A stretch of DNA of 64,000 bases, taken from Isoetes taiwanensis. Taxonomy: Eukaryota > Streptophyta > Lycopodiopsida > Isoetales > Isoetaceae. The position numbers were made by a program, and so were the translations under genes. A model generated the notes under the pieces. It saw only the letters and a program-made list of their open reading frames with translations. It had not been told where the DNA came from and ran no database searches. This document shows, piece by piece, positions 21,113 to 51,214 of the stretch; positions within the stretch are counted from its first letter, which is position 1, and every line of letters starts with the position of its first letter. The stretch spans positions 4,756,745 through 4,820,744 of the forward strand of contig JAJEKV010000039.1 of assembly GCA_021234155.1 (NCBI GenBank). The letters run 5' to 3'.

Positions 21113-21245
21113 GTATCATTTGGACATCCGTAAAGAACAGTTAGGTGCTGTTCTGCCCTCTCGTCCAACCCTGACTTTGTAGGTTGGTATTTTTGAGCCC
21201 ATCCTCAAAAAGATCCACAAATGGGAGCATCTTGGTTTTTGTGCG

Positions 21246-21279
21246 GGAACGCCGCATGTTACGCCGCATGCGGCGTTCC
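21246..21279 (+). repeat. Helitron subterminal 34-bp palindrome
   Basis: GGAACGCCGCATG at the left pairs with CATGCGGCGTTCC at the right, and the right half also contains the perfect palindrome CGCCGCATGCGGCG. The same block lies at 33,703-33,736 (opposite strand) and, mutated, at 29,501-29,535. Confidence 0.85.
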
Positions 21280-23009: not shown

Positions 23010-24943
23010 TCTCCTATCATTTTGAAGTGCACGGAACCCCAAAGCAGACCGGGCCACAATAACAGAGTTGGCATACCACGAGTTGGCGATTGGCCATAAT
23101 AACAGAGTTGGCATATGTATCAGGCCTTCATTATCATGCATTCTACATGCAATCGCTAGACATGATATTTTCTCTTGCCTTTTCTAAAACTAAGTTTACT
23201 CCCAATCCTCAAATCCATGCATGTAGTAGAAATATTGGTGTTATCTACGATGGGCTGGATTGAGAGGGCCGAAAGAGATTGAGGTAGTTAGACAAGCCAT
23301 CATGGTGCATATATTGCTCTACTCCTAGATCTTCACAAGTGCACAATGTTTCCTTAAAGCCCAAAGCAGCTCGCAAACTTTTGGGCGGTTCTAGAGCTGA
23401 TTTGGATCTGCATCTCTCATATCTGCTGAAGCTAAATTCATGCTCTTTGTTATGCATTTTATTTTTGTCATTAAAAGCAAAATAAATTTGGTCTCGATTT
23501 ATGTTCATGTCCTTTAGCAAAAGATACATACGATTTTTGGACAACTTGAGAGTAACTTGATCCTTATGTTTTATAGATTCCAAACATCACTTTGTTGCAT
23601 AAGCTGCAGACATTGGCAAGCCTATTATGTTTACTGGGTATGCTAAAGGAGATTGCAGGACTACTAACAAATTTTCAAAATAAGAATGTTCCAGTTCCAT
23701 GTAATTGAAATAGCCAAATTCAAATAATGGCATATTGAACCTGTCTACACGGATTAAGTTCGTTTCAAAAAAAGATCACACATGATGAAGTTGGAAAGAT
23801 TGGATTGATTTGTTGCCACTTTGGCCTTCTATGACCTTTGTAAGATACTTAGTCTCATATTTCTTCGCTAAATTGTCGCCTTTTATATTCTTATAATTCA
23901 ACCGTGAAGCCACGTCATTTACCATGTATGATTGTTTAAAGTAGAAGTAGAGGACCATGATTCTCATTTTCCACAACATGAAGTGAAAGCAATAATCCAA
24001 AATAGATATGAATAATCCAAAAGTGGTGAATAAATGATGTCCAAATTTTTGTTTTGCCTTTCTTAATTTTACATCGATGCCTATAGTCACTACATCTAGC
24101 AGAGGTGCTTACCTCCAAAGAGACCAATTGTTCAGAACCTTCAAGAGTATTAATTATGGGAAGGCCACATTATTAACATGTATTCAAAAAGATGCTCCAT
24201 AATTATGTCTAGGAATATTCAAAAGGGCATTAAATATGCAAACTAATTCACACGCTCCATAGTCATGTCTTGAAATTTTCGAAATAGTACAAAGGCTTCA
24301 TAAAAAAAATGTATGGTTTGAAAGATGCTCCATAATAGTTCTTCATAATAGCTATGCATTGCCGGCGTTCTTCATTGCATCCTTTCAATACATAGGCATA
24401 GAATTGTCCTTGAGTGGAAATGATTACGAGTTTGTCTTAGTATGTTGTATAACTGGGGTTCAAGTTGTGTTTGTTCCTCACAAATGCATTTCTAAGTACA
24501 ACAATGAACATAGGTTGTAGTATTTGTATTTATATCAATATATATTTATGATCTTGCGTGTTCCCATTCTCAAAAACACCTCTAGAGAAATATAGTTTTG
24601 TAACTATTTTAACTTGGTTTTGGAAATGACCTATGCATGACTCTGAACTAATGTGACTAGGGTGGGTTTTTATGCACCCAACGGGACACACAATTGGTCC
24701 TTGACATGATAAATTATAGAACAATTTCAATGTAGACGTGCCAATTTTATAAATGTAAAAAAACAGCATGAATTGTCAAACGGCGGAAACCACCTATTGT
24801 TATATTCAAGTAATTTAAGAAGTTGGGCAGCGCCTGCATCCTGCACCTATTACATATTTTTTTTCACACATCCTGCACCTATTACATTTTTTTTTTCACA
24901 CGTCCATGACAAATGCCCGGCATCGCCGGGCACACGTTTCTAG

Positions 24944-25984
24944 TGACTTTGTAGGTTGGTATTTTTGAGCCCATCCTCAAAAAGATCCACAGATTTTCTG
25001 GGATAAGGTAGGGATCCTAGCATAGAGCTCCCTATAAGCTCATGAATGAAATTAAGTAGTGTCGCAGTCTGCTTGACAGTACGAAGCTTCACTAAAGCAT
25101 CACGCTCATCATGAAGTGGCGCATATTCATTTATGAAATGCTTCTTGAACTGATCCCAAATCTTCACCTCCACACCCTTTGTTCTCAAAGGTGGAGATGT
25201 AGTATCTCCACCTTTGAGATATTCCATCTCTCCTTGCACACTTGATCCGTCCTCAGCATGCTGCTCATGACCACCATTCTTTAAACCTTCTTGTGTAATG
25301 GGGCTCGTGGGTGGCTGGGTAGATTTTGTTTGGAGGCGATTCATAGAAGGATGATGCCCCTCTTCTTCCTCATGGCCCAAACCTGCTAGAAGTCTGTCCA
25401 TTTCTGCAATCTTTTCCTCAAAGTGGGCACATTTATACCATAGTCTACCAGATCAGTATCACTAAGATTACCCTGCTCTGGTAATTCTGGCTGATCCTCA
25501 GCCCCTGGCTGTTGCACTGGATCATTAGTCCCAGAAGAGCTTATCATTGCGCTCTGATACCAAAATTGTTACACCTAATGGAAGCACCGCCTTTAGCTAG
25601 AAGCGTACACTTATCGCTCACGCCAATGGATTCCTTGAATTCCCCACGGTGTAATCTGCAATCCCTGATTGCCAATAATCCCTGATTGGCTGTTTATTTC
25701 TAGCTTTTGTAGTTGCCTTAAATCAACTACTATAGTTGTAGGAAGAAAGGGAAAAGCCAATAGCCAAGATTCCTACTCAATGAGGATGCAGGAACAATCT
25801 CCGGAGCGCTTTGGCCGGAATAGTATTGGTAGGACTGACCTTCCGGGAAGTTAAAGCACGCTTGGACCGGAATAGTACTTTAAGTCATAATATATTGGGA
25901 TGAGTGACCTCTCGAGAAGTTAAGTGTGCTTTAGGTCATAATAGTACTGAGATGGATGACCTCTTGGAAAGCTTTAGTGTTGCA
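24944..25984 (-). mobile_element. LTR retroelement piece: LTR, primer-binding site and gag-like frame (copy 1)
   Basis: On the minus strand an LTR ends in GGTGTAACA (25,567 in plus coordinates). Four bases later comes TGGTATCAGAGC (25,551-25,562), the plant primer-binding site complementary to initiator methionine tRNA. A reading frame follows: first MISSSGTNDPVQQPGAEDQP, then, after a frame change, MDRLLAGLGHEEEE (from 25,401) and a gag-like stretch IWDQFKKHFINEY...RDALVKL. Gag would form the capsid. No protease, RT or integrase is seen. The element breaks off at the Helitron junction. The outer LTR edge is near 25,984, set by a TGCA after the 5S-like block. No target duplication was found. 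The LTR carries 5S-like sequence, a Cassandra feature, but Cassandra elements are normally non-coding. Confidence 0.7.
25551..25562 (-). promoter_or_regulatory. Retroelement primer-binding site (initiator tRNA-Met)
   Basis: TGGTATCAGAGC on the minus strand is complementary to the 3' end of plant initiator tRNA-Met and lies four bases inside the LTR edge. The identical site in copy 2 is at 38,879-38,890. Confidence 0.85.
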
Positions 25985-25987
25985 CCC
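25804..25987 (+). repeat. Three head-to-tail 5S-rRNA-like segments in an LTR (copy 1)
   Basis: Three imperfect copies of the 3' part of plant 5S rRNA follow each other: 25,804-25,850, 25,851-25,919 and 25,920-25,987. Each has the internal-promoter-like run (for example GTTAAGTGTGCTTTAGG), then ATAGTACT and a GATGGATGACCTC-type block. The last runs on to GTGTTGCACCC, the normal 5S 3' end. The 5' part of 5S is missing. Known 5S genes and Cassandra LTRs have one copy, so the reiteration is odd. The 5S sense is the plus strand, opposite to the primer-binding site and gag. Divergence is too high for a working rRNA gene. Confidence 0.75.
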
Positions 25988-26029
25988 AACCACCGCATTT
26001 TTTTCGAACTTAAAAAAAGTTGAGACATA

Positions 26030-26458
26030 TTGATGGAGTCGTTCAACATCTTCTTTAGCTTCAGCTTACTACAAAAGCATCATCCGTCTTCTGCTAAAAC
26101 CAAGTACTATAGGAGCCCCTCCATTCCTACAACTAATCTATTTGCTTGTCCAAATGTAGCAGCTTCTTTTACCTTCAATGGTTATAATGATTCGAATTCT
26201 TTGCAAACTAGAGGAGAAAGGCTTGAACCAAAATCTAGAAAAGATAGTCAATAATTGCCAAACCTTATGCTTGAAGACAACCATTTCCATTGTAAAGGCA
26301 GTGCAAATCTCTTAGCTCCCCATGAATCTAAATCCAAACTAGACTTCAGTCCAGCCCTGAAAATTGATTTGAAACATGATGCATTGTTAGAGTTTCCACT
26401 AGGTCATCATGCTTCTTTACAAGTAAAAGTTATCCATTCACATAACCCGTCCTCATAA
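26030..26458 (+). pseudogene. Anonymous exon-like frame with one internal stop (copy 1)
   Basis: A frame opens at ATG 26,030 (MMESFNIFFSFSLLQKHH) and, apart from a TAA at 26,252-26,254, runs in the same phase to 26,458. The same frame and stop are in copy 2 (39,362-39,787), so the stop predates the duplication. I do not recognise the protein. It lies upstream of the GPAT pseudo-exon on the same strand and might be the N-terminus of the same relic gene, but nothing in it matches the GPAT N-terminus as I know it. Confidence 0.35.
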
Positions 26459-27603
26459 AGTGAAATTCAAGGTCTTACGCCACCTGAATTTTAAGAGTTT
26501 CAGGTCTATAAGGGGGGTTCACAGTTTTGGACGTATAACCCATTTGCGTGCACGTCGAGGGGCTTTTTAATGGTTGTTGGCATACGTATATGTCCGTGAA
26601 AATACGAGTTACAGGAACACATTTTTTGTAGACTAATATGAAGGGGAGTGTGGCATGAGAACTATACGCCTCCTCCTTGTGAGCTGTCTCACGCTGTATG
26701 GGATTTCCCTTTAAGTTTTGGAGCTTCAAGTCAGATTTTGGATTTAACTTTGGTTATTTATTTTTGACAAAAAAAAAAAAGGTGTCTCATATCAGGGATG
26801 TTGATGTGCCTTCTTGCTCCAAATGTATCGAGCTTAGTTGGAACGTCATTTATATTGCATTTGCAACTGTTGATTCTCTATTTTAGTTTTAATATGCAAA
26901 AAATGCAGCATTGTTTTAGTTCTTTCTTCAATTTGAGCAATATGCTAAACTGTAGCATTTTGTTTGGCCTATTATCATGCCTTCTTGCATCACGCTCACA
27001 TTTGTTCTCGTCATTTTTATGACCAAGTTGTAGTTATAGTCCCGTGAAACTTCATTGGCAACGGTAGATGGTTCTTTTTTATGCTAAAAGAGCTGAATTC
27101 CAGAAGCAGTTTTGAAGCGGCTGAAGAACTCGTTTTCTAGCTACCCATTTGCTCTTAATAAAGGCATATTAGCAAGGCAATATCTTGATTATCATGTTAG
27201 AATTTTTTTTCTTCTCTATGCTTGATCTGGCCACCAGTATCTTTCCATTATTTCATGTAGGATCCAATAATTTGTGGACTGTTGCTTCTCCCGGTAGAAG
27301 TAATCCTGCGGGCATTAGAAGCTTTTTTACGAAAGAGCACATCAAGTCTATTAAGGTATTTCCATTTTGCCAGCAAAGGATTCCAAATAAAGATTATCAC
27401 TCCTTCTTGTCTTCCATGTGAGTATGCATGACATATTCAGATTTAAATCATTTAGACATAGATGGCATGGATGATATTGTTATTGCCATTACTATTAAGA
27501 CATAACGACCCATGTATTGTGAACTTGAAGCTTGAAAAAAAGGCATATGCTACTCTTTTGCATGCCATAGCATTCTATTTCTGTGCACTCACAAGACAGG
27601 GTT

Positions 27604-27845
27604 GCTGGAGGAAGGGATGTGACAGGATTAACTTATAGTATCAGCCATGTTTCTAAAGTTATTTAATCCATTAAAACTGCTAGATTGGCTAGAGACAAAG
27701 AAAGGGATGCTGCAAATATCACGGCTCTGCTTCAGAAAGAGGGTGAGGTAATTTGTCCGGAAGGCACTACATGTAGAGAGCCATTTCTGCTAAGATTTAG
27801 TGTATTGTTTGCAGAATTGAGTGATAAAATTGTTTGCCCTACGTA
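27604..27845 (+). pseudogene. GPAT (glycerol-3-phosphate acyltransferase) pseudo-exon, copy 1
   Basis: The frame reads LTYSISHVSKVI, stop, [18 protein letters not shown], then [20 protein letters not shown] and [12 protein letters not shown]. This is the acyltransferase core of land-plant sn-2 GPATs (cutin/suberin type), where [20 protein letters not shown] is close to invariant. In the living enzyme this block binds glycerol 3-phosphate. A TAA at 27,664-27,666 interrupts it, and it breaks off after the valine into low-complexity sequence. The HxxxxD motif and the phosphatase-like N-terminus are absent. It is a fragment, not an enzyme. Confidence 0.85.
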
Positions 27846-28130
27846 ACCCCCCGTGTGAATATGCACACAAACCAAAGGGGGTCTAAGGGGGATTTTAATT
27901 TAAATGTATTAAATGCAATGGTTTGTGTTAATAATGTTAATGGTAGTTGTGTGTTGATGGTTTATGTTAACTAAAAAAAAATTCGGCCCCTTAAGGATGG
28001 TGTAGGGGTGTAGATATAGACATTACCTAATACTCTAATGATGGATGATGTATCATAGCCTCAGATACAATATGTCATAATATAACCATAGAAAGATAAA
28101 TTAATACTAGAATCGTGTGCCCGACGATGC

Positions 28131-29020
28131 CGGGCATTAGTCATGGATGTGTGAAGGCATTTATATGCAATATGCGCAATGCATTTAAGACAATATATGT
28201 TTAGGTGCAATAACGCATATAGGTAGGGAACAAACTTTACCTTTAAAGTGTACACATAATATGAAGTTCAAACAAAATCGTAAACGTCAACCTCAATGGA
28301 ACCACAACATAAAGAACCTATCCCAAAGAACTCTAGGAGCGTTGTCGACTTAATATGAAGCTCATTTGCGAAGCCGACAGGTATAGAAGCTCCTCCCGTC
28401 ATGCCTATGGTGGCGAACATGAATGTGTAAATATGCTCTGATATCATGTACCACACTCGCGACTCGGGTCTACCAACAACGATGTTATACTTGTTCAACA
28501 ATATTATACTTGTTAGAAACTCGAGGAGCTCATAATCACCAACTGCATCGTGTGGAATCGATGCCAAAGCCGTCGTCGTCATCGTCGTGTGCAATGCCAG
28601 GCATTAGTCATAGATGTGTGAAGTCATTTATGTGCGTTAGTCGTGGTCATGTCGTGAACATGCACAATGCATTTAAGACAACAAATGTTTAGGTGCAATA
28701 ACACATATAGATAGGGAACAAACTTTACCTTTAAAGTGTCCACATAAAATGAAGTTCAAATAAAATCGTAAACCTCAATCTCAATGGATCCACATCATAA
28801 AGAACCTATCCCAAAGAACTCTAGGAACGTCTGCCAGCTCGATGTAAAATTCATTTGCAAAGCGGGCATGTATAGGATCTCCTTCCGTCATGCCTATGGT
28901 GGCGAACATATGAATGTGTAAACATGCTTGTACCACACTCGCGACTCGGGTCTACCAACGACGATGTTATACTTGTTAGAAACTCGGGAAGCTCATAATC
29001 ACCAATTGCGTCATGTGGGA
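28131..29020. repeat. Tandem duplication of about 460 bp at the Helitron 3' end
   Basis: The block beginning GCATTAGTCATGGATGTGTG (28,135) is repeated from GCATTAGTCATAGATGTGTG (about 28,601). Both copies contain TTTAGGTGCAATAA, CTTTACCTTTAAAGTG and AACCTATCCCAAAGAACTCT. The second copy starts with a decayed terminal hairpin (GTGTGCAATGCCAGGCATTAG), so the terminus itself was duplicated. Confidence 0.8.
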
Positions 29021-29500
29021 TCGATGCGCCCTTGAACCATTTCCCATCGCAAGCACCAATATCTGTGATGCCTCCTGACTTGAAGCAAGTTCCCTTACAT
29101 GTATATTAAGAGGGGAACTTTTTCGACTCCAACACAGCAACATGCCAGCATGTGTTATCAACACTGAACAACACAATGTACCAAGTTCATTCTTCCACAG
29201 CAAAACCCTTATAAAGAGACATGCCGCAGTTTTAGTGTTGGAATAGAACACAACCGGAACCAAATAAATTTCAAATAGAACATATAATACGCGGAATAAA
29301 GATGCAAAGTCGACATAGGTTTATAGAAAACAAAGGAGCTCTGTATGAACGAAGAAGAAGACTTGAGAATCTACATCTTTATTGCCACTATAGATCCGCT
29401 TAATGGATTCCTTATCTGCTACTCTGCTCAAAAGTGGGAAAAACCATAGAGGAAGAAGGCCAACAGACGCACATGGCCAAAAAACCCCGTGAGTGGAAGA

Positions 29501-29575
29501 GGAAACACCGCATGCGGCATTACATGCAGCCTTCCAGGTTCAGAAACCAAAGCCCTCCCAAAATAATTAAGAAGA
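29501..29575 (-). mobile_element. Internal, older Helitron 5' end
   Basis: On the minus strand, TCTTCTTAATTATTTTGGG begins at 29,575 after an A, followed by a mutated copy of the 34-bp subterminal palindrome (29,501-29,535). Compare the active outer end TCTTCTTTTTTATTTTGAG at 33,776. Together with the 3' end at 28,107 this would define a shorter 1.47-kb element. Confidence 0.75.
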
Positions 29576-31835
29576 TATAATCTAGAATGTCACTATCCAT
29601 CATATCAAGCAATATCATTTGAAATGATTCATTATTAGTGTTTCAGCCTATAGAATAAGACCAGAGTGTCATGAACTTGGGCTTGGGCCCTCTATGACAT
29701 AAATTTGTGTTAGGTTATTACATAAACTTCACCACCATTATATTGTTTCCGTATTTGTGTAAACAACATGCATTAGTAGTCCTCTATAATCTTCAATACT
29801 ATTGTATTGTTTTCACATTTGTATAAACAACGTGCATTACATCAATGGTGCATTGTTTGCAAATTGTAAAGGTGACATGCATTAGTAGTCCTTGTAAACA
29901 CAACGTTGATGTACAAAGTAGTCATTTTAATATTCAAAATAATTGCACCTTTTAGAAACAACAAAGCCATATATTATATGACCTAACAGAAACTTTCAAG
30001 CTATTGCTGCACAAACCAAGTTCCATAGCCACCAACTTATATAATCGTCTCTGCAACTGCTTTTTGTACTACATGTTAACGTACAAAAATATATAACATA
30101 AAGAAATAAACCATTTCAACGCCGTTAAATTGATGTAGTAGCATTGAGATGCTTCGAGAAAGTCTATGGACAATAGGCATACATGCAAGGTACTCCCCTG
30201 GTGGTCATGGTTCTTCAACACTTATGTGTCAAGCAGTAAATCTCAGCAAAATGTATTATGATTAACAAACCAAATTACAATGTATGAGCTTTGTTTTATA
30301 CAGTGGCGAATAGCAACATTTTTTCACATTTTAAAGTCCAGCATGAAAAAGCAACAATTTTTGAAGCATAAGTTACCCTTACCTACGTTTCTCTAAGAAC
30401 CCTAAGCTTGCTATATAGAAAACATTTTCTGTTACCAATTTGATTCCCATAATAGTGCAGGAAGACGGGGATGCGATACTCACTGCAACTTGATTTGTTG
30501 AAGCTCCCAAAACGTGGATGCAATGGATAGCCATATATTGACATCCTCTAGCATGTGTTGCAATGCATCAAAAATAGACATTAGGCCTTGATGGTTCTGT
30601 GCATATGGGCATGATTCCTCCTACTAAACAAACTATATCATGAATAACAAACCAAGTTACAATGTATAAGCTTGCATTTTATGTAGTACCAATTAACAAC
30701 ATTCTCCCCAACTATTCTAAGTTCCCAGCATAAAAAGCAATACTTTTTGAAACAAAACTGACCCGTTCCTCCGTTTCTTTAAGAACCCTAAGCTTGTTAT
30801 AGAAAAGGTTTATCAGCTACTAAGTTGATTCCCATAATAGGTGCAAGAAGAAGAAGGGGATGCAGATAGAAGAAGAAGACGCAGATACTTACTGAAAATA
30901 TTGATTTGCTGCAGCTTCTAAAAACATGGATGCAATGAGTAGCCATATATTGACATGCTCTAGCATGTGTTGCAGTGCATCAATAATAGACATTAAGCCT
31001 TGGTGGTCCTGTGGGCATGATATACAACCAACAAAACTAAGGGCTTGTTCTTCCGATATAATCAAACCTAATGAAATGCAATTGTACAGAGGTACATATG
31101 TTACCTTTACAAAGAAATAAATTATCTTGCAAGAAAGGAATTACCCAAAAGCTTTCCAGATGAGAGATTGTAGGACAGTAAAGGCGATGAATTTTTTGAC
31201 AGAATATCCCTCGGTAAAATCTTATATTAAACATCTGCAAGGAATACTGATATCAAAATTTGCAGCTATCAACTTGCAATCACTCAGCTACCATAGTGCC
31301 GAAGCAATCAAATTTAGACCGTCTATTCTGCAAAGTGCAGATTCTGAATTGCTAGAATGCCTATATGCTCCTTACGGCTAGTAAGTGTGCATAAGCCATG
31401 TCACAATTACCCCTAACAGTATTCGGAACATTCCAAAATGGGTCTCGCTCTTACTTTTAAAACAATGTCAAAACCAGAGAATAAACTCTTACAACTTGTG
31501 AGCTTATTATTTGTTCTCAAATTTTCTTACCTGGCTAAACACGAAATTAGAATAGCTCCCATTTGGTGTTGTTAAAAGTTTGTCTGCAAATGAAGAAAAA
31601 ATAAAGTGTTACAATTGAGAAGAACAGAAAAATGGGCTTACAATTCCGTTATTTTTGCCATGCATAACTAACAAAGGAACAAAAGCTTGAAACTTCTTCT
31701 CAGTTATCCAACCTGATGATGCAATTCTTATCTTCATGGAACATGGAATAGAATTCAGAGATGAACTTACAACGTATTTGATACTGTGGCATGAAGTATT
31801 ATGTAGGTTTCAGCTCCTGAAGTATTATGCAGGTT

Positions 31836-33002
31836 TCAGCTCCTGCAACCATATAATTCAATATGCAATGTGCAATCATGAGAGTTGAACCCATGCATTA
31901 CCGAAATAAACACATCATCATAGGATATTAACAACTGAAATATGTGAAGAAGGTAGTCACAAATGAGAAGGTAGCAGGCATCTTGAGACTCTTCGGAGAA
32001 TATCACAAACTGAGGACTTAATATTGTTAGGTATCCATTCAACAAAGTATGAAGAGTTCTTACTTTGGACATTGAACATTTGTTTATCAACTTCCTGTAT
32101 GTCCATGCAGCCCAAAAACATTGCCAATGCGGTTAGATATCAGACATAATGTGGATCTGCAGCACGCATCATAATTTTTGCAATCCAGATTGTTATGCAA
32201 ATTCTGGCACAACATGTTACACTGTACATAGTTGCAAAGATCAAATGGTTGAAGTCACCAACTGCATCAAAGTAGTTTACGTATTCGTTTAGTAAGCGAA
32301 TGGTTAAATATGAACATGCAGGATCAAACAAAGATCAAATAGAAGGGACCAAGAAGTGATGGAAATGAAATTGTTAACTAACTGCTCTCTAATATAATTG
32401 TATAGGCCAGTGATGCTATGTTGAGGGCTTACAGGTTGGGATTGTGAGCATCGGGTCCTGAAGCAGATATAGTAGAGAGTCTCGTAGTCTAACACCATGC
32501 ACACTCATCCAGTAGTCTAACACCATGCACACTCATCCAGCTGATGCACTGATAAGGTTGCATTGCATGACTCCACAATCATATCAGACATCCTTGGAAA
32601 AGGGAATACTTAGAAGGTCATGCAGTCAGGATATTTTCGTCCCATCTCCCATAGAGTCTTGAAAACTTGCATGTCAACAACCATGATGCTGAGAATAACT
32701 ATATATGTAGAGTAAAATAGGAAGTTATAATGATGTGAAATGAGAGTTGGGATTTGAATTAAAAGAAAGCAGTCGATGTAATTATCATAACTATCAAAGC
32801 AGTCCTTGATTATAAGGGATGCTAAAACAAAAGATTGAGCATAGAAATGCCGAAATGTATAAAGAAAGCAATAAAAATATGTACTGACATTTTTACCTGA
32901 TCTCTGAACTTGGACAGCATAAAGATTTCCTACATCAAAGAAGCGCAGTACCAATCTAATGATACTGTCCATCACGAAATTTGCAAGACTGTCTAGATTC
33001 AA
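31836..33002 (-). other. Exon-like pieces inside the Helitron, possible captured gene
   Basis: Several short minus-strand stretches look like exons: one around 32,895-33,000 with SLANFVMDSIIRLVLRFFDV ending at a good donor (CAG|GTAAAA), one around 32.22-32.33 kb with NEYVNYFDAVGDFNHLIFAT, and one around 31.9-32.0 kb with [20 protein letters not shown]. They read in one direction and order and have a protein-like composition. I do not recognise the parent gene. Helitrons often capture host gene pieces with introns, so this is plausible, but homology is untested. Confidence 0.3.
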
Positions 33003-33702
33003 AAACGTCCTGCTGCAAGCAAATGCTGATTATGGCATATTGCAAGGGCCAAGCGTTTCAGACACAGAGTAAACTTCTATGCAATGGAAAAAGAAACCTA
33101 GAAACAAAGAGTTGTGTTAGAAAAATAGCAAACTGTAATCTACCTAATATTTGTTCTGCAGCAACGAATCTTGCACAACGCTGTGACCAGTATCAGCAAA
33201 CATCTTCTAACTGGTGCTAATGTCGTTTGCTGCTGCCTGAGGACTCTGGGATTTGATTTACTTCTGCCGTTTTCAAGCTCTGAAAGGAACCGTGGAAAGG
33301 CGGAGCAGAGGAATGTTGCTTATGAAGATCTAATCGGCTCTCAATCAAGCATCTGCAGATTGATAACTGCCCGAGCATTATAACATCGTCTGAAAATGCC
33401 ATAAGCACCTTCCAAATTTCTTTAAAAAACGCCCAAAATCAAAGCCAAAGGCAAAAACGAACTGAGGCTTGCAAACTCTGAGGCTTGTTAGTTTTGAATT
33501 CCGACCCAGCTCAGGCTTGGGCGTCAAAAACCATGGAGAGAGCTTGGGGCGCCAAAAATCGTGAGCATAGCATAGAGGACGGAAGGAAATAATGCGTAGG
33601 CAGCATTCAAACACCCCACCAGCTCAAAAACTGGCCATCAATGCTGCCAGCCCGCGTCTCACAGCCGGGCCGCAAAAGGAAAGGGAAGCCGCAAAAAGAA
33701 AG

Positions 33703-33736
33703 GGAACGCCGCATGCGGCGTAACATGCGGCGTTCC
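33703..33736 (-). repeat. Helitron subterminal 34-bp palindrome
   Basis: This is identical in plan to 21,246-21,279: GGAACGCCGCATG pairing with CATGCGGCGTTCC. It is 40 bases inside the 5' end of the 5.67-kb Helitron. Confidence 0.85.
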
Positions 33737-34099
33737 TGGCACGGTTCCCAACCCCTTCTCAAAATAAAAAAGAAGATGTGAAGCAACAAGAATTGAGATT
33801 TGGAACCATCGTATTGTTGTTTGAAAATACAATCTTGAATCGACTTTGGATTTAAATGTGCACAGAGGATCTGGAATACATTAAACAAATCTGGAATAGA
33901 GGACAAAATAGTAGAGGCTTGAGGTAGAGCAGTGGAAATGTAAGGAAAGATAATTTAATCGAACTACAACAGGCTGAATGAGCTTATTAAATATGCGCCA
34001 TGCATTAATATGAGCCATGCATTATCTGGGTCCCCAAATTATCTACAAATAGAAACATTAACATTTTCGTCTCTGAGCCACTTTCCAAGGCAAAAGCCT

Positions 34100-34210
34100 G
34101 ACACTTTTGTGCATCACCTTTAAGAAGAACATCAGAGTTTCCTTTTCTTTGCTATGTTGAACATAAGCCGCGATAATTGTTGTCCAAGAGAATATATTTT
34201 GTGCTTCCAT
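34100..34210 (-). pseudogene. PPR fragment (copy 1)
   Basis: Reading down from 34,210: MEAQNIFSWTTIIAAYVQHS followed by KEKETLMFFLKVMH. This is one L/S-type PPR repeat (pattern NV.SWT.II.AY.Q.G....AL..F..M). Upstream there is no in-frame repeat. Copy 2 has the same piece at 44,100-44,223. Not a functional protein. Confidence 0.65.
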
Positions 34211-35310
34211 ATAATGTCAATCAGTCAAAAATGTGTTGTAAAAGTGTAGATGACTCTTGCTCCCACAACTCAGAATTTCTTCTAGACGTTTCTTATACAA
34301 ACATGGACCTTTATAGACCAAAAACCACCATGAATACGGTTCATCTGCACATTTGTTAATCACAAGCTCAAATGTGAACCTACAAACATGGAGTTAAATA
34401 TTAGAGAGCTTAATCACACCAAGCACATCAAGCAGGTTGGCAACAATGATAGAGCCAAGCATGATCAAGAACCAACAGCGTTATTCCTTTTGTGCAATGG
34501 GACAAAATGAACCACGTAATGTCAACCAGTCAGAAATGTGCTCTAAAAGTGGAGACGACTCTTGCTGCCACAACTCAGAATTGCTTCTAAAATCTATCCA
34601 TATTTTCTAACTAAAAGCTTGGTGTACATGGATAAATTAGCAGTGCTTTCTTTATATTCTCTACTGCCAATTCCTTTGCCTTATTACATGTGTCTCTTTG
34701 CTTCAAACACATAACTTGGCACATTACGAATCCGGCATTTTCTCATTTCAAAGCCTGTTTTAGCCATTGAAATCAATTTAAACACCTAAAACGAACATAT
34801 TTCGATGTCTTGGTCTCAATCTCACACTCATTTCTACCTAATGTAATGTAAAATTAATTCATATGCAGACACATCAATGGTCACGAAGGTATGAAGGATA
34901 TCAACAGGCTTGGTAGTCTGTCCTAACCCAAGGAGTTTATATCAGGAAGCTCCAATGGATGTTACACATATATTGCAATTTTCTCTCAAATATCAACATT
35001 GTTATCCGAACCTCACTCCACCTAATCACAAGAATGGAAACTAAATTTGGCTCTCTTGACTGACCACTTTACACTGCCCGGCCCGGGTTTGTTAGGCTCT
35101 TTTCTCACTCCATGGTGTGTATGCAGCAGCATTCCAGACCAACATTCCAAGAGAAATTATTCCGTACATTAATTATTTCATTGCTGCACAAACTGATCAA
35201 AGCTGTATTTATTTGTGACTTTTTAAGTAGGTTTGTCTTAGCAAACTTGGTTTCCATAGCAGCTGGAGTTAAGTATTGAAGAGTTTATCAGAACGTTGAT
35301 GTTTATTAAG

Positions 35311-37928
35311 CATTTTATGCAAAATAACACAGGTTGGGACATGTGGTAAGAGAACAAAAATATCTATTCTACGACATTCCTCAACAATAAATCCAATGCA
35401 TCCTCTGAATGCAAGGAAAAATATTACAACAACAAGGCTTTTCCTGCATCATTAGCGTTCTCGTAAGCTCATAGTTCCGTTGGCTCTATTTGAACTAGTG
35501 TATCTGATGCTCTCTCCTGGTAAATCGTCCATCTGTTACATTATCACTATAAAATGTGTCTGCTCCTAACCACCTTGCTTTCCTTTGATCTATTGCTCGT
35601 GAGTTCATAGCAATCGACTGCAGAGGGTAGCACCGAAAGAATCCTTATGGAATGTAAAGCCAAAATCGAAAGATGGCGGTTTGCAAAGTCATTTCAAAAA
35701 GCACGTATGTTTGTCTACGCTTCACAATCCGCCTCCGGGTTCATGAGGAACAACATTGTAAGGATTAACAAGCAATAGGTTCAAGTGCATGGAATTAATT
35801 GAGGTGAGCCCACGTGCCTTCTATGCAAGAAAGATGACATGACTTTGTACCATTGAACTTAAAAACTGGGATAGACCTTACAACGCCTTTTATATTTTGC
35901 CAAATGCAATATGGATAAAAATGACAATAACTCATACAACTATATATGCAAAATGAGAATAGATCATGGAGCTATGCACTTACTTTCTTCGGGGTTCTTT
36001 GCGGCACCCAAAAAAAGCTAGAGAAGAATAGGAGTATCAACTTTACGTATAACAAAACAAACCGGTTATCAAATAAGCTGCTTTGTAGAACTGCTATTAC
36101 ACTCATGGATACAAGTAACTTTTATAACATCCTAGTACATGGAAGTCCCAATTTTTAACACTTCATGAATATCTCCTTTGTCAAATGATAGCACACACCT
36201 TCCTCTTTAAAAATGTCTCAAGATTATCCTTCCGAGACATTCTTCTTTCCGTCGGTCGCGTAGCGTGGACTTTGAACAGAACATTATGCATCTAGAATAT
36301 TTGATTAGCATTGTCAAAACATCTAAATAAGAAACAAGTAATAATTCATGCAACTTATCTAGGAATTGAACAATGGGTAGAAAACATCATCAATACAATG
36401 GCGGGTTTCTTACAAGTGTTAGAAGCACGTGCGATCCCGAACACGTCTCATTGGATTACCACCAAATCCTCGTATGCCCATCATTAAATGGTCACAAGAG
36501 AATGATTGCAAAAGCACCTTGAAGAGAATAAGTGTCTTAAGCTTTACAGAGATTTTATTCCCGGAGTATATTTCTATGCTTAAAAACAACAAAACAGATA
36601 TTCCCTAATGCTTAGTTCATCGCCTCAATGAGGGTAATATGATTAAAACGGGATAAAGTGTGGCTCGGGAGTTATTTGAGAAAAGTATATAGAGAACACT
36701 AGCATTGCCTATAAATCACTAGCTTTTAACTCAGGCGCTTTCGCTAAGATACTTTTATTTGCAAGAGAAGAAAAATATTACAATATGTTGAGCCTAAAAC
36801 ATTTGGTTTGCTACACATTTAATAATTGTAAAAAAATTTACTCTTGACTCTACGTACCTAGTGGAATTGAACTTTGGTTGTTATCTAGAAGTAACTTTTC
36901 GGCTTTAACTTTACTTGTTCGTCTCTCCTTCCTTGACTTCGGTTCTCCATGTTCACATCTTTGGATCCCGAGAATTTTGCTTTCTTCTTAAAACGTCCCA
37001 GATAAAGCAAATTAAATAACCGAGCATTTAAAATTGTTTAACCTACCCAAAGACAGTCTTTACTTGCTTCTTGATGCAAATATCCTTCCAATGGGCCAAG
37101 AAGCTTTTCTTTTGTGACCTTTGGGGAGTTCAAGGGTTTGTGCTCTTCCATTGAGTGATGGTCACGCTTAGCCACTTTAGCTAAAGCATCTTGTAAAGAG
37201 GTCACCAAACCTAGAGAAAGCCTTTTAGCACGCAACTTGGCAACCCTAGCCTTTGCATTTTCCATTTCGTGAACAAATCCAGAATCCAATTCACGGTTGG
37301 TCCACATCTTTGTTGAGTAGCTTTCAAAATTATGTCTTGGTGGTCAAATTACCGCCAGTAGCAACATGCAGAAGATAAAAGAGGGGCCATGGGATCCTTT
37401 GTATGAATACTTGACGATCTTTTCTCGGGTCGTTATTGCCACCTAAATCTAACTTTACATCCTCATAGCTTGATTCTTTTTTTCACATTTGTGGTATTAA
37501 AATGAGCCTCATTTGGAAGTAGCTCCCAACCCATTGAAAAGAGGGCTTTCTTTTGTACCCCTTACGCTAAGAAAAATCCTTTTATCTCCTTTAACACTCG
37601 AGGACAAAACCGGGAAGTATACAAACCCACTCTGTTGAAAGACTCATCCTTCACAGAGATGGGGAGAGAAAATGAGAATCTGAAGCCACCAAACATTCCT
37701 TCGATCCAAGTTTTGCGACTTTGGCCAAGTTGAGGCGAGGAATATCAAAACATTTCGCTGGAGGGATTTTGTATTTAAACTCTTTTTGGTTTCTCCGGTC
37801 TTCTTAGAAGGGCCATCACTGTGCTTTTGCAGCCAAGCCGGGCTTTCGGTGACCTTCCCGAGGCCGGAAACATATCCACCGGCAAAAGGCCTCAAAGATT
37901 TGGTCCATCCACATAACATCCTCCTCAA
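35311..37928 (-). pseudogene. 5'-truncated-unit copy of the DYRK gene (N-terminal exons only)
   Basis: This matches 18,238-20,842 of the full kinase gene, in the same orientation. It holds the large N-terminal exon (about 37.04-37.92 kb) and the small exons after it, but ends at the duplication junction before the exon with the DYRK homology box. It therefore cannot encode a kinase. The large exon is broken into short frames by small indels. Nearly all of these lie on CTG/CAG/CCG sites and may be sequencing error rather than decay. If transcribed from its own upstream region, it would run on into the PPR fragment at the end of copy 1. Confidence 0.85.
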
Positions 37929-37929
37929 T

Positions 37930-38225
37930 CTTCAAATTTATGAACAGAATTGGATTGAACGTCTAGGTGCAGCCAATTGGATAAGAGGAATGCATCCCAT
38001 AGGGTACGGCTTCCAAGCCGAAGAAACCCAGAAGCTTGTGTTTTGCTATGGGTGATCTAGGCGCCCATGTCAAAGAAGGTCGTCGGAATGGCCGGTGCGG
38101 TTAGGAAAAGAGACGATCCCAGTTTTTTCCCAATGGGGTGGCCATCACCGGCGCTCGGTTTGCCTACGTGGCATTCTCTATCCGCTTCAACATCCACGTA
38201 TCATTTGCACATCCGTAAAGAACAG
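37930..38225. other. Upstream region of the truncated kinase copy
   Basis: This matches 20,843-21,170 almost base for base. It joins the LTR/gag piece directly, with no Helitron, so it shows the arrangement before the 21.2-24.9-kb insertion. One small difference (GATCTAGGCGCCC here, GATCTCGCCC in copy 1) shifts the short frame that crosses it. Confidence 0.7.
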
Positions 38226-39320
38226 TTAGGTGATGTTCTGCCCTCTCGTCCAACCCTCTAGGTTTCTCAAATGACTTTGTAGGTTGGTATTTTTGAGCCC
38301 ATCCTCAAAAAGATCCACAGATTTTCTGGGATAAGGTAGGGATCCTAGCATAGAGCTCCCTATAAGCTCATGAATGAAATTAAGTAGTGTCGCAGTCTGC
38401 TTGACAGTATGAAGCTTCACTAAAGCATCACGCTCATCATGAAGTGGCGCATATTCATTTATGAAATGCTTCTTGAACTGATCCCAAATCTTCACCTCCA
38501 CACCCTTTGTTCTCAAAGGTGGAGATGTAGTATCTCCACCTTTGAGATATTCCATCTCTCCTTGCACACTTGATCCGTCCTCAGCATGCTGCTCATGACC
38601 ACCATTCTTTAAACCTTCTTGTGTAATGGGGCTCGTGGGTGGCTGGGTAGATTTTGTTTGGAGGCGATTCATAGAAGGATGATGCACCTCTTCTTCCTCA
38701 TGGCCCAAACCTGCTAGAAGTCTGTCCATTTCTGCAATCTTTTCCTCAAAGTGGGCACATTTATACCATAGTCTACCAGATCAGTATCACTAAGATTACC
38801 CTGCTCTGGTAATTCTGGCTGATCCTCAGCCCCTGGCTGTTGCACTGGATCATTAGTCCCAGAAGAGCTTATCATTGCGCTCTGATACCAAAATTGTTAC
38901 ACCTAATGGAAGCACCGCCTTTTGCTAGAAGCGTACACTTATCGCTCACGCCAATGGATTCCTTGAATTCCCCACGGTGTAATCTGCAATCCCTGATTGC
39001 CAATAATTCCTGATTGGCTGTTTATTTCTAGCTTTTGTAGTTGCCTTAAATCAACTACTATAGTTGTAGGAAGAAAGGGAAAAGCCAATAGCCAAGATTC
39101 CTACTCAATGAGGATGCGGGGAACAATCTCCGGGCGCTTTGGTAGGAATAGTATTGGTAGGGACCGACCTTAGGGAAGTTAAAAGCACGCTTGGACCGGA
39201 ATAGTACTTTAAGTCATAATATATTGGGATGAGTGACCTCTCGAGAAGTTAAGTGTGCTTTAGGTCATAATAGTACTGAGATGGATGACCTCTTGGAAAG
39301 CTTTAGTGTTGCACCCAACC
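38226..39320 (-). mobile_element. LTR retroelement piece with gag-like frame (copy 2)
   Basis: Same element as in copy 1 but uninterrupted: primer-binding site at 38,879-38,890, LTR from 38,895, and a 167-codon gag-like frame 38,226-38,729. The frame goes further than in copy 1 (NLQSHLRNLEGWTRG) before leaving the element. The join to the kinase upstream region is at about 38,258. The gag similarity (WDQFKKHFINEYAPL..RDALVKL....F..GL) is to Ty3-type retrotransposon gag, by pattern only. Confidence 0.7.
39131..39316 (+). repeat. 5S-rRNA-like segments in the LTR (copy 2)
   Basis: These are the same three segments as at 25,804-25,987. The last two are unchanged. The first carries several CHG-site differences (CCGGAGCG to CCGGGCG, GGCCGGA to GGTAGGA, ACTGACC to ACCGACC). 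Confidence 0.75.
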
Positions 39321-39361
39321 ACCGCATTTTTTTCGAACTTAAAAAAAGTTGAGACATATTG

Positions 39362-39787
39362 ATGGAGTCGTTCAACATCTTCTTTAGCTTCACTTACTAC
39401 AAAAGCATCATCCGCTTTCGCTAAAACCAAGTACTATAGGAGCCCCTCCATTCCTACAACTAATCTATTTGCTTGTCCAAATGTAGCAGCTTCTTTTACC
39501 TTCAATGGTTATAATGATTCGAATTCTTTGCAAACTAGAGGAGAAAGGCTTGAACCAAAATCTAGAAAAGATAGTCAATAATTGCCAAACCTTATGCTTG
39601 AAGACAACCATTTCCATTGTAAAGGCAGTGCAAATCTCTTAGCTCCCCATGAATCTAAATCCAAACTAGACTTCAGTCCAGCCCTGAAAATTGATTTGAA
39701 ACATGATGCATTGTTAGAGTTTCCACTAGGTCATCATGCTTCTTTACAAGTAAAAGTTATCCATTCACATAACCCGTCCTCATAAAG
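39362..39787 (+). pseudogene. Anonymous exon-like frame with internal stop (copy 2)
   Basis: Counterpart of 26,030-26,458, with the same in-frame TAA. A few small changes near the start break the frame in this copy. Product unknown. Confidence 0.35.
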
Positions 39788-39873
39788 TGAAATTCAAGGT
39801 CTTACGCCACCTGAATTTTAAGAGTTTCAGGTCTATAAGGGGGGTTCACAGTTTTGGACGTATAACCCATTTG

Positions 39874-42249
39874 TGTGACGAGCCTGCCGAGTTGACCCTC
39901 CGGGCAACTCGGGATCTTGTCTGACTTACAACTAGATTTATGCACAGGCGAATTTAGGTGAAGAATTAAATCTTCCTTTGCAAATTAAATCCACAGTTTA
40001 GGCTCAACAAGCAATCCTGGTTCAGGCATTCAACATATTCATAAGCTTTTATATTCCAAGTTCTAACTGAGCAAATCAATAGCTCAAATATTTACAATGT
40101 GTTATCAATATCCATGTACAACAACACTGAGCAAATCAACAGGAACTGCTAGCTCTAGAATTCAAGCACGATTCCCGGCCACATTGCGACCATCAACTTG
40201 GCCGCCACCTTGCGGGTTCACTGCACATGCACTCACTGGGATTAGTCCTCGTGACTAAGTGGGGATCCCGTAGCTGCTACTGCGTACATAGGAACACTCT
40301 GACATCTTGGATAACATACACATGAACAATTCCAAATATACAAGAGACTATGGTGCAGTGCTAGACAATGACAACAAAAGAAATATCATAAGAGTCCAGA
40401 GCAAGAACACAAAGCCAAAGTACCAAAACAACATAACAAAGCTCCGGGACAATGGGAAGCTCAGCCAGCCTACAAGCAGGCCCTGTTAGCAGAGAAATGC
40501 CCGGCCAGCTCACATTCCGAGCCCCGTTGGCGGAGTTGGTGGGGTGAACCTCGTATGCGCATACCCTTCCCAGCCCACGTCTGGCGCTGGAGGACCTCTT
40601 ACCATGGAGTTCACAAGAGTTGACGTACAACCTCACCGGGAAGCTACGCCCGTGAGGAGGCCACGCCCGGTGTCACAGAGCATAGATACAAAGAACACAG
40701 ATGACATGAGAATGCCGGAACTACCCAGGCCACCGAACCTGGAAGTCCGACCCCGGAGGTTCCAAGTACATAACATAATATCAAGGACGACAGTGGAACA
40801 ATTCAAAGACCATAACAGAATTTACTATAAATGTGCCTAGATCATACTCTTAGCCCTTGTCGAGGTTGCCCATACAACCTAACCATGCCGAAGTAGCTAG
40901 ATCGGTGATGGAAACCCTGATGACAACTCAAATGTTGATGCAGCGTGCTCAAACCACCCCTGTAAGGTTGATGCAGTACTCACTTCGCCATATTATTTAC
41001 TTAAGCTCCCTTAGGTATGGTTTGAAGGTTTTAATATTTAAAGTTCCACTTCTTAGCTAATGAATTAATTGCGCATTCAAACTGGCGCCTCCAACTTATG
41101 CTTTTCCTGCTTAAAAATCTATGGGGTCCCCTGACCGCAACTGCCTGGAACTTCCGTCAAGCAGCACACAGGCAAGCCCCATCTCTGGGAGCAAGCTGGT
41201 ATAATTATCCCATGCACCTTTGAATTATTACTTTTCAATTACCTATTATCTTAGTTAAATACAACCAATCCTAGAATTCCCGCAACTTGTTATTATTCTG
41301 CCCAGGCGCCATGCTCAAATTTGCTCTGCTAACCAATTCTTCCTTAAGCCAAGGGCAACCCAATCCCATCTATGATTATCTAGATTTATATTTGAACAAC
41401 CAACAAGCAACCCACCAAACTGATTAAAACAACAAATTAATAAATCCAATAAAAAACAAGATAAAAAGCAAAACTAACGTGAGCTTTAGATCCGGTGCCG
41501 ACCAGCCCATATCCTTCTACTTTGCCCACTGATTTGGGCTTCTTGGACCCTCAAATCTTCTGATTTCCTCCTGGCTCTGTGTTCCAGGGAATTCCAGACA
41601 GTTCCAGGGCAGTTTGAAGACAGTTTTCTGCTCTAAAATTTTACCAAGCAAGCTTCTGTAACCATTTCTGAAAGCTAAAATTTCTCCCTCTACTTCCAAA
41701 TTCGGCCCTCTTAGACCCAAATCGGCCCTTCTCATCCAATTTCGACCTGTTCCAGGTCATTTTCAAGCATTTCTGGCAGTTTCGGTGCCATCTGTGATGG
41801 CTTGGTTGCAAGTAAAACTTATTGCTACAGCCTATGATTTCTGAAATTGCTCTCTCCTGGATCAATTTCGGCCTACTTCAGGCCCTCTTACTATAACTTT
41901 TCCATCAACATCATCTCATATGCTTGCTCCAGTAAAGAAAACCCTCTCCATCCACCGTTACAGTTCTTACAAAAGCATGCACAAATCTGATCCTGAAAAC
42001 CTATGCAGCTCAATTGAATCCATAAAATCAGAATTCAAAACCCCACCTGGAAGAGAAATTGATGCAGTCTCTGTCTACGACAAGCTCCGATGCTCTCTGC
42101 CTCGATGCTGAGAGTAGCCTTCTCTTGCAAAAGCTTCACGTCTCCAAAAAGCCCCAAATTTCTAAACCCTTGCTCATACATCTATGCCCTACATGTATCT
42201 TCATAAATACTTGTACAATACTGGCCCCTAGCTGCCCAGGACCATTACA
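39874..42249. mobile_element. Solo LTR or LTR-like element, 2,376 bp, TSD ATTTG
   Basis: The insert begins TGTGACGAGC and ends CCATTACA, flanked by ATTTG on both sides (39,869-39,873 and 42,250-42,254). Copy 1 has a single ATTTG at 26,542-26,546 and no insert, so the ends are exact. TG...CA borders and a 5-bp target duplication fit an LTR retrotransposon. There is no primer-binding site, no polypurine tract next to a second LTR and no coding domain, so a solo LTR from LTR-LTR recombination is most likely. 2.4 kb is long for an LTR, and a small non-coding element with unseen short LTRs is the alternative. Confidence 0.88.
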
Positions 42250-42889
42250 ATTTGCGTGCACGTCGAGGGGCTTTTTAATGGTTGTTGGCATACGTATATG
42301 TCCGTGAAAATACGAGTTACAGGAACACATTTTTTGTAGACATATGAAGGGGAGTGTGGCATGAGAACTATACGCCTCCTCCTTGTGAGCTGTCTCACGC
42401 TGTATGGGATTTCCCTTTAAGTTTTGGAGCTTCAAGTCAGATTTTGGATTTAACTTTGGTTATTTATTTTTGACAAAAAAAAAAAGGTGTCTCATATCAG
42501 GGATGTTGATGTGCCTTCTTGCTCCAAATGTATCGAGCTTAGTTGGAACGTCATTTATATTGCATTTGCAACTGTTGATTCTCTATTTTAGTTTTAATAT
42601 GCAAAAAATGCAGCATTGTTTTAGTTCTTTCTTCAATTTGAGCAATATGCTAAACTGTAGCATTTTGTTTGGCCTATTATCATGCCTTCTTGCATCACGC
42701 TCACATTTGTTCTCGTCATTTTTATGACCAAGTTGTAGTTATAGTCCCGTGAAACTTCATTGGCAACGGTAGATGGTTCTTTTTTATGCTAAAAGAGCTG
42801 AATTCCAGAAGCAGTTTTGAAGCGGCTGAAGAACTCGTTTTCTAGCTACCCATTTGCTCTTAATAAAGGCATATTAGCAAGGCAATATC

Positions 42890-43126
42890 TTGATTATCAT
42901 GTTAGAATTTTTTTTCTTCTCTATGCTTGATCTGGCCACCAGTATCTTTCCATTATTTCATGTAGGATCCAATAATTTGTGGACTGTTGCTTCTCCCGGT
43001 AGAAGTAATCCTGCGGGCATTAGAAGCTTTTTTACGAAAGAGCACATCAAGTCTATTAAGGTATTTCCATTTTGCCAGCAAAGGATTCCAAATAAAGATT
43101 ATCACTCCTTCTTGTCTTCCATGTGA
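42890..43126 (+). other. Anonymous open frame present in both copies
   Basis: A 78-codon frame (LWTVASPGRSNPAGIRSF) is identical to 27,185-27,421 in copy 1. The preceding poly(T)/TTCTTTCTC stretch is like a splice acceptor and GTGAGT follows directly after the stop region, so it could be an exon of the same relic gene as the GPAT piece. I do not recognise it. Confidence 0.3.
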
Positions 43127-43312
43127 GTATGCATGACATATTCAGATTTAAATCATTTAGACATAGATGGCATGGATGATATTGTTATTGCCATTACTAT
43201 TAAGACATAACGACCCATGTATTGTGAACTTGAAGCTTGAAAAAAAGGCATATGCTACTCTTTTGCATGCCATAGCATTCTATTTCTGTGCACTCACAAG
43301 ACAGGGTTGCTG

Positions 43313-43559
43313 GAGGAAGGGATGTGACAGGATTAACTTATAGTATCAGCCATGTTTCTGAAGTTATTTAATCCATTAAAACTGCTAGATTGGCTAGAGA
43401 CAAAGAAAGGGATGCTGCAAATATCACGGCTCTGCTTCAGAAAGAGGGTGAGGTAATTTGTTCGGAAGGCACTACATGTAGAGAGCCATTTTTGCTAAGA
43501 TTTAGTGTATTGTTTGCAGAATTGAGTGATAAAATTGTTTGCCCTACGCAACCCCCCCG
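43313..43559 (+). pseudogene. GPAT pseudo-exon, copy 2
   Basis: Same block as 27,604-27,845, with the same TAA (43,369-43,371). Here the motif reads [16 protein letters not shown] because CCG became TCG. The shared stop shows that the gene was dead before the segment duplicated. Confidence 0.85.
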
Positions 43560-44099
43560 GGTGAATATGCACCCAAACCAAAGGGGGTCTAAGGGGGATT
43601 TTAATTTAAATGTGTTAAATGCAATGGTTTGTGTTAATAATGTTAATGGTAGTTGTGTGTTAATGGTTTATGTTAACTAAAAAAAATTCGGCCCCTTCGG
43701 GGCCTTAAGGATGGTGTAGGGGTGTAGATATAGACATTACCTAATACTCTAATGATGGATGATGTATCATAGCCTCAGATACAATATATGTCATAATATA
43801 ACCATAGAAAGATAAATTAATATGTGAAGCAACAAGAATTGAGATTTGGAACCATCGTATTGTTGTTTGAAAATATAATCTTGAATCGACTTTGGATTTA
43901 AATGTGCACAGAGGATCTGGAATACATTAAACAAATCTGGAATAGAGGACAAAATAGTAGAGGCTTGAGGTAGAGCAGTGGAAATGTAAGGAAAGGAATG
44001 AGCTTATTAAATATGAGCCATGCATTATCTGGGTCCCCAAATTATCTACAAATAGAAACATTAACATTTTCGTCTCTGAGCCACTTTCCAAGGCAAAAT

Positions 44100-44223
44100 C
44101 CTGACACGATTTGATGCTTTTGTGCATCACCTTTAAGAAGAACATCAGAGTTTCCTTTTCTTTGCTATGTTGAACATAAGCCGCGATAATTGTTGTCCAA
44201 GAGAATATATTTTGTGCTTCCAT
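44100..44223 (-). pseudogene. PPR fragment (copy 2)
   Basis: Counterpart of 34,100-34,210 (MEAQNIFSWTTIIAAYVQHS). It has 12 extra bases near 44,108 compared with copy 1 (GATTTGATGCTT). Not functional. Confidence 0.65.
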
Positions 44224-45329
44224 ATAATGTCAATCAGTCAAAAATGTGTTGTAAAAGTGTAGATGACTCTTGCTGCTACAACTCAGAATTTCTTCTAGAC
44301 GTTTCTTATACAAACATGGACCTTTATAGACCAAAAACCACCATGAATACGGTTCATCTGCACATTTGTTAATCACAAGCTCAAATGTGAACCTACAAAC
44401 ATGGAGTTAAATATTAGAGAGCTTAATCACACCAAGCACATCAAGCAGGTTGGCAACAATGATAGAGCCAAGCATGATCAAGAACCAACAGCGTTATTCC
44501 TTTTGTGCAATGGGACAAAATGAACCACGTAATGTCAATCAGTCAGAAATGTGCTCTAAAAGTGGAGACGACTCTTGCTGCCACAACTCAGAATTGCTTC
44601 TAAAATCTATCCATATTTTCTAACTAAAAGCTTGGTGTACATGGATAAATTAGCAGTGCTTTCTTTATACTCTCTACTGCCAATTCCTTTGCCTTATTAC
44701 ATGTGCCTCTTTGCTTCAAACACATAACTTGGCACATTACGAATCCGACATTTTCTCATTTCAAAGCCTGTTTTAGCCATTGAAATCAATTTAAACACCT
44801 AAAACGAACATATTTCGATGTCTTGGTCTCAATCTCACACTCATTTCTACCTAATGTAATGTAAAATTAATTCATATGCAGACACATCAATGGTCACGAA
44901 GGTATGAAGGATATCAACAGGCTTGGTAGTCTGTCCTAACCCAAGGAGTTTATATCAGGAAGCTCCAATGGATGTTACACATATATTGCAATTTTCTCTC
45001 AAATATCAACATTGTTATCCGAACCTCACTCCACCTAATCACAAGAATGGAAACTAAATTTGGCTCTCTTGACTGACTACTTTACACTGCCCGGCCCGGG
45101 TTTGTTAGGCTCTTTTCTCACTCCATGGTGTGTATGCAGCAGCATTCCAGACCACCATTCCAAGAGAAATTATTCCGTACATTAATTATTTCATTGCTGC
45201 ACAAACCGATCAAAGCTGTATTTATTTGTGACTTTTTAAGTAGGTTTGTCTTAGCAAACTTGGTTTCCATAGCAGCTGGAGTTAAATATTGAAGAGTTTA
45301 TCGGAACGTTGATGTTTATTAAGCATTTT

Positions 45330-50928: not shown

Positions 50929-51214
50929 ATGACTTGTTCCTATTCCACAGCATAAAGGAAAGCTAAGAACTGGCTGCAGGGCGAAGAAATGGCGAAAAAC
51001 CTTGATCTTGAATTGCTAAATCTGCCATCGAACTTGCTCGCATATCATGCGAGAAACAGGCCCCAACAAGTCATAGCAAGAAAACCATTCTTGATTTGAA
51101 TGGTCGCCACATGGTGGCTATTCATTGGCTGATAATCAAGAATGAAGACTCACTTTCCTTGACATTATGAGAAGCCATTAATGTTGGCTTTTACATCACA
51201 AAATGGAAGGGCCC

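Follow-up and report, generated by a model that had tools for sequence, protein, structure and literature searches.

Candidate nanopore miscalls at CTG and CAG sites in a duplicated region of the Isoetes taiwanensis assembly

The Dcm mark is a 5-methylcytosine (5mC) in a CWG core. In a Klebsiella pneumoniae genome read with the ONT callers then current, ∼70% of the consensus errors fell in Dcm motifs (CCAGG/CCTGG) and homopolymer errors held a share of the consensus errors, according to the accessible text of PMC6591954. For native plant DNA, the available portion of PMC9749173 describes a lower nanopore accuracy and names methylation as a likely cause. Methylation-linked nanopore ambiguities in bacterial outbreak genomes fell from 2357 to 44 after PCR, as stated in the accessible part of PMC11610573. 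Here, a related pattern of differences is described between two copies of a tandem duplication in the lycophyte Isoetes taiwanensis, read from the deposited assembly.

Location and site specificity of the differences

The window analyzed here, a stretch of 64,000 nucleotides of contig JAJEKV010000039.1 (assembly GCA_021234155.1), contains a tandem duplication of two units, at 18238-35316 and 35311-45329, with internal insertions and deletions. In the first block of the duplication, 18238-21222 (copy 1) pairs with 35311-38322 (copy 2) at 94.9% identity; the further matching blocks, 24936-26550/38262-39877, 26542-28106/42250-43822 and 33762-35316/43808-45329, have identities of 98.6, 98.5 and 95.5%. 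By this block layout, a 3.67-kb stretch of unit 1 (21219-24886) is lacking from unit 2. A 95.2% homologue of this stretch (L008) lies on contig C919. Direct repeats of 51 bases (21172-21222 and 24944-24994, 98%) border the stretch, which reflects either the insertion of an element or a deletion across the repeats.

In the full alignment of the first block pair, the differences bunch on CTG and CAG. They define an affected patch in copy 2 (about 35597-37905), the middle part of the block pair, with a clean counterpart in copy 1 at 18526-20852. Of the 73 CTG/CAG sites that copy 1 has opposite 35598-37905, copy 2 spells 62 differently; among background triplets distant from both CTG/CAG and CG, the count is 18 of 1367. 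CTG (34/38) and CAG (28/35) are hit alike, as expected for a strand-symmetric, methylatable motif. Away from CTG/CAG, CCG/CGG is altered at 6/12 sites and other CG sites at 2/7. When the changes are merged into events (73 in the patch, including one alignment-end artefact), 57 touch a CTG or CAG of copy 1, versus a mean of 12.2 and a maximum of 25 under random placement (2000 trials). The patch of copy 2 holds 61 CG dinucleotides, versus 30 in copy 1 over 18526-20870.

The first altered CTG/CAG is at 35615, preceded by a CCG change at 35597, and the last is at 37894. In the clean left margin of copy 2 (35311-35597), all 7 CTG/CAG sites are intact and the single substitution is at 35433. In the clean right margin (37906-38257), 6 of 8 sites are intact, the two exceptions being a C>A at 38233 and the block end, and the first difference from copy 1 is a 3-base insertion at 38059. 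The original prediction that the copies differ almost only at CHG sites, with CTG and CAG intact just outside the patch, is thus borne out by the counts. "Almost" is needed: three substitutions, six one-base indels and one mixed event, ten in all, fall clear of every C[ACT]G/CGG of copy 1, so that "only" would not hold.

The three other blocks gave 4/14, 1/13 and 4/17 events touching CTG/CAG, against random means of 1.9, 1.1 and 2.5. In block 24936-26550/38262-39877, CCG/CGG is altered at 6/14 sites and CTG/CAG at only 4/41. In block 26542-28106/42250-43822, only 4 of 1214 masked positions differ, and both copies are clean.

A search of the whole genome (1.658 Gb, 1110 contigs) provided partial third copies on other contigs. 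One of these, L003, sides with copy 1 at 61/61 difference columns. Columns matching copy 1 number 16/19, 14/19 and 16/19 in three others, L004, L005 and L006, and those matching copy 2 number 2, 4 and 2. At 13 CTG/CAG sites they keep the copy 1 triplet in 8, 7 and 7 cases, and at the other 5, 6 and 6 the triplet is absent both from them and from copy 2; they are weaker witnesses than L003. Because the partial third copies side mostly with copy 1, copy 2 is, on balance, judged to be the altered copy, as had been proposed from the window alone.

Recurrence in other patches

CTG/CAG counts along the window flag further poor stretches besides 35597-37905. One is a second affected patch inside unit 1 (21427-24250), dense to ∼22.9 kb and partial from 23.0 to ∼24.2 kb. 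Over 21223-23400, 52 of the 67 CTG/CAG sites of the homologue L008 are altered in the window, versus 13% of triplets without CTG/CAG or CG. Beyond ∼24.2 kb the effect is gone (7/7 sites unaltered), along one continuous 3.7-kb match to L008. The error is therefore not confined to copy 2.

The kilobase at 28100-29100 is also poor in CTG/CAG, with CG near expectation. The window has 8 sites there, and the near-full copies L016, L017 and L018 have 6, 8 and 8; partial copies compared over the same part have 5 versus 2 in the window (L019), 9 versus 5 (L020) and 5 versus 4 (L022). This poverty may be natural composition or error in several copies, and the stretch was not counted as an affected patch. 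Because the near-full copies share it, depletion alone is not diagnostic and was rejected as a detector. Two further kilobases, 9001-10000 (observed/expected 0.41) and 51001-52000 (0.40), are likewise CTG/CAG-poor, without CG excess.

Elsewhere in the genome, twelve 8-kb stretches on other contigs were sampled at hand-picked round coordinates rather than by a random generator; three of them (L023, L027 and L034) consisted of N throughout and were left out. Among the 144 500-base segments of the nine remaining stretches, 17 had an observed/expected ratio under 0.5 for CTG/CAG and over 0.7 for CG, a count that reflects composition only. Two of the 17, in L031 and L033, were compared with related copies. 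The family at L031:1001-3000 was unusable: the five compared copies have CTG/CAG counts of 25-34 versus 31 in the sample, and because none is clearly richer, the family could not be polarized.

The repeat family of L033 was more informative. CTG/CAG counts are 11 in L033, 15 in L036 and 48-49 in L037-L040. Relative to these four clean copies, L033 has lost 46-47 of the 48-49 CTG/CAG sites and L036 38-40, versus differences at 3-8 of 48-49 sites between clean pairs. In a six-copy alignment, the clean copies L038-L040 themselves lack the L037 triplet at 10-14 of 49 sites. A larger set was drawn from 749 candidates, of which 40 were scored; it comprised the 26 matches scoring best against the affected copy L033. 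Of these best 26 of 40 scored, 9 were affected (11-36 CTG/CAG) and 17 clean (at least 40), with limits (≤36 and ≥40) chosen after the counts had been seen and with graded counts among the affected copies.

Products of the changes and competing explanations

Three unrelated affected/clean pairs were used to compare the products of the changes. A new CG arises at 37/62, 32/50 and 29/45 altered sites (60-64%), and the total number of CG dinucleotides rises by 31, 27 and 24. C>T or G>A products account for only 7/62, 4/50 and 4/45 sites. Deamination of 5mC, or a process resembling repeat-induced point mutation, would share the targets seen here, the CHG sites, but C>T/G>A changes do not predominate and CG goes up rather than down, so that the probability of this explanation is close to nil. 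The original prediction had already set deamination aside, and the small share of C>T/G>A-type products (7/62 in the patch) agrees with it.

The products also recur with sequence context. When sites with identical 5-mers at unrelated loci are paired, unaltered ones included, 67 of 716 pairs agree in their product; 1000 shuffles gave a mean of 40.8 and a maximum of 61. The recurrence lies beyond every shuffle, and the effect is moderate in size. L033 and L036 have 38 altered sites in common, despite each being closer to the clean copy L037 outside CHG sites (2.2% for L033 and 2.1% for L036) than to the other (3.0%). At these 38 common sites they carry the same product in 10 cases (shuffled mean 3.6, maximum 9). 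Real divergence of a decaying copy, through some mutational process aimed at CHG sites, is in keeping with copy 2 being the altered copy and with its broken frame. Such a process would have to make insertions, deletions and CG-creating substitutions at 62/73 CTG/CAG sites versus 18/1367 background triplets, and to repeat this in non-sister copies elsewhere with context-recurrent products across loci. Like deamination, real decay was discarded in view of the product spectrum and the third copies, and we regard it as very improbable.

Homopolymer-length errors are a hallmark of nanopore sequencing, and methylation is not their cause. Among 25 copies of the L033 family compared with L037 (from the best 26 of 40 scored), CTG/CAG loss does not follow divergence (rho -0.12, p 0.57). 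It is correlated with homopolymer indels located away from C[ACT]G/CGG in 25 copies of the same set of best 26 of 40 scored (rho 0.69, p 0.00015). Such indels are present in 9/9 affected and 4/16 clean copies among these 26 best of 40 scored. In pairs among L033 and L036-L040, there are none in 6/6 clean pairs, 3-4 in 8/8 affected-clean pairs and 7 in the affected pair. In the window, affected stretches have 10 homopolymer indels per 2610 columns versus 4 per 4772 in clean ones (Fisher p 0.0087). Since methylation does not cause such errors, the affected patches as a whole resemble nanopore consensus that was left uncorrected, with a CHG bias on top.

Nanopore miscalling at CHG sites, rather than the DNA of the organism, very probably accounts for the differences of copy 2. 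The idea of nanopore miscalls at CHG sites, put forward in the original prediction, is supported by the site specificity, the recurrent products and the homopolymer indels; the direction of change in copy 2 and the recurrence in other patches are observed alongside them. The reads would be nanopore reads, and the altered CTG/CAG cytosines would carry CHG methylation (5mC), at which the basecaller would make systematic errors. A basecaller trained mostly on DNA with 5mC in CG context would render a methylated CTG or CAG as a CG-containing string. The errors would persist wherever subsequent correction was ineffective, in patches of the assembly whose accurate reads would have landed on cleaner, near-identical copies.

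The positions of the patch edges bear on this last step. The left edge falls between the intact site at 35560 and the change at 35597; the block starts 286 bases before that change, at 35311, and the sole left-margin substitution (35433) is 164 bases away from it. On the right, the last difference of the patch is at 37901 and an intact site is at 37945, with the edge in between; the insertion at 38059, the following difference, is 158 bases beyond 37901. These edge-to-variant distances of ∼160 bases would correspond to about one short read, although the actual read length may differ. Outside CHG sites, copies 1 and 2 differ at 6/1555 positions, a number much smaller than that of the altered CTG/CAG sites (62). 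Accurate reads derived from copy 2 would therefore fit the clean copy 1 better than the uncorrected copy 2, which would remain as it is. Two observations count against misplaced reads. Three substitutions lie inside the patch (36597, 36623 and 36629) and neighbouring CTG/CAG sites are still altered; if real, these substitutions should have anchored accurate reads. The clean block 26542-28106/42250-43822 (4/1214 differences) is also not predicted by misplaced reads alone. Failed consensus correction is the likelier cause of the patch edges, judging from these positions, and we hold this account of the edges less firmly than the error itself.

Alternatively, the same miscalls could be bounded by methylation itself, the CHG-methylated and silenced stretch of copy 2 coinciding exactly with the patch, and the surroundings and copy 1 being unmethylated. 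The sharp edges and the strong CHG specificity are compatible with such a boundary, as are the remaining duplication blocks, which are largely unaffected. A boundary would leave unexplained the extra homopolymer indels away from CHG sites in affected patches, the range from clean to heavily affected copies of the repeat family regardless of divergence, the presence of the error inside unit 1 as well, and the placement of the edges at about one read length from the nearest distinguishing variants. We consider a methylation boundary unlikely as the cause of the edges; its probability overlaps with that of miscalling with failed correction, because the error mechanism is common to both and only the cause of the edges differs, and the two could both apply. 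The original prediction that methylation marks copy 2 in particular is not supported, as the same error occurs in the unit 1 patch at ∼21.4-24.2 kb. The 9/26 repeat copies affected elsewhere (best 26 of 40 scored) and the homopolymer indels, which methylation does not explain, likewise tell against it. Copy 1 may be equally methylated, and methylation and silencing specific to copy 2 find no support in these alignments.

Nanopore errors intrinsic to CTG and CAG and independent of methylation would also yield nanopore-like errors at these sites, which are what is observed, whereas methylation is here something that we infer. We know of no published CTG/CAG nanopore bias in unmethylated DNA. Motif-linked nanopore errors in the literature go with methylation, as in the accessible text on Dcm (PMC6591954), and PCR cut the ambiguous positions from 2357 to 44 in the available part of PMC11610573. 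This explanation is improbable, less so than real divergence. CHG-methylation-linked miscalling is the preferred reading.

Gene models and relation to described nanopore errors

The affected patch has consequences for annotation. A 294-aa frame on the minus strand is open in copy 1 (19958-20842) and interrupted in copy 2, and its residues 1-145 have a partial match on contig C523 (97%) that is also an open frame. The best copy 2 match is 62% identical with 7 stops, and fragments of the same protein, split by indels, lie on the minus strand at 37038-37931 as ORFs of 101, 60 and 95 aa. Of the 16 frame-shifting indels over the 294-aa frame, 14 have a C[ACT]G/CGG of copy 1 no more than 4 bases away, a raw count without a chance control. 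This agrees with the view, taken from the outset, that the frameshifts of copy 2 are partly artefact, and the apparent pseudogene state of copy 2 cannot be trusted from the assembly.

The original prediction placed a kinase fragment in copy 2, a reading that found no support. Pfam gave no kinase domain in 11 of the 38 listed frames, a search that would miss a non-catalytic kinase part, and the one frame searched against PDB sequences, the 294-aa frame, had no match there. The Pfam matches in the 11 frames were a weak Retrotrans_gag, in a frame crossing the right block end, and two families far below threshold. Retrotrans_gag matches just under the cut-off occur on the minus strand in both units, at 24940-25452 and 38226-38780. 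Outside the duplication, an open frame at 55886-56725 matches EDR2_C (E 1.1e-40), a domain with a plant distribution.

From the composition and alignments examined here, CHG-site errors in the present assembly do not look rare. Left uncorrected, such errors can give an intact duplicated gene the look of a pseudogene, make repeats seem older than they are and add spurious CG. The signature is easy to screen, which makes it possible to vet the annotations of such assemblies with existing data. It is conceivable, though we would put it at somewhat less than an even chance, that uncorrected patches in deposited plant assemblies form an inadvertent record of CHG methylation, readable from the letters alone. 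If so, the DNA that was CHG-methylated in the sequenced plant could be recovered, without the raw signal, from the loss of CTG/CAG, the gain of CG and a dictionary of products by context, and false pseudogenes and falsely aged repeats could be flagged.

In the open-licence PMC literature, including the accessible parts of PMC10473749, PMC8514461, PMC12425826 and PMC9716091, no breakdown of CTG/CAG errors was found for a plant nanopore assembly, which does not prove its absence. The terms CHG, CTG and CAG have zero occurrences in the main text of PMC9749173. As in that study, insofar as its text was available, plant methylation is named as a likely cause of the miscalls; unlike in it, the spectrum is here read from an assembly alone. 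The errors are systematic and motif-linked like those in the accessible part of PMC11610573, of which a strong reduction by PCR is a feature. That work concerns purine/pyrimidine ambiguities at RACG/CGTY, in contrast to the CTG/CAG sites that are turned here into CG-containing products with indels. The likeness to the Dcm errors, as given in the available text of PMC6591954, lies in consensus errors concentrated at one motif and accompanied by homopolymer errors. In both cases the motif has a CWG core, which carries 5mC in Dcm motifs and putatively does so here. The differences are that the present errors affect CTG/CAG generally, and CCG/CGG less, rather than just CCWGG, and that they occur in patches of an otherwise cleaner assembly. 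Methylation-induced nanopore error is already known, and the present case would be a clear instance of it with a readable spectrum.
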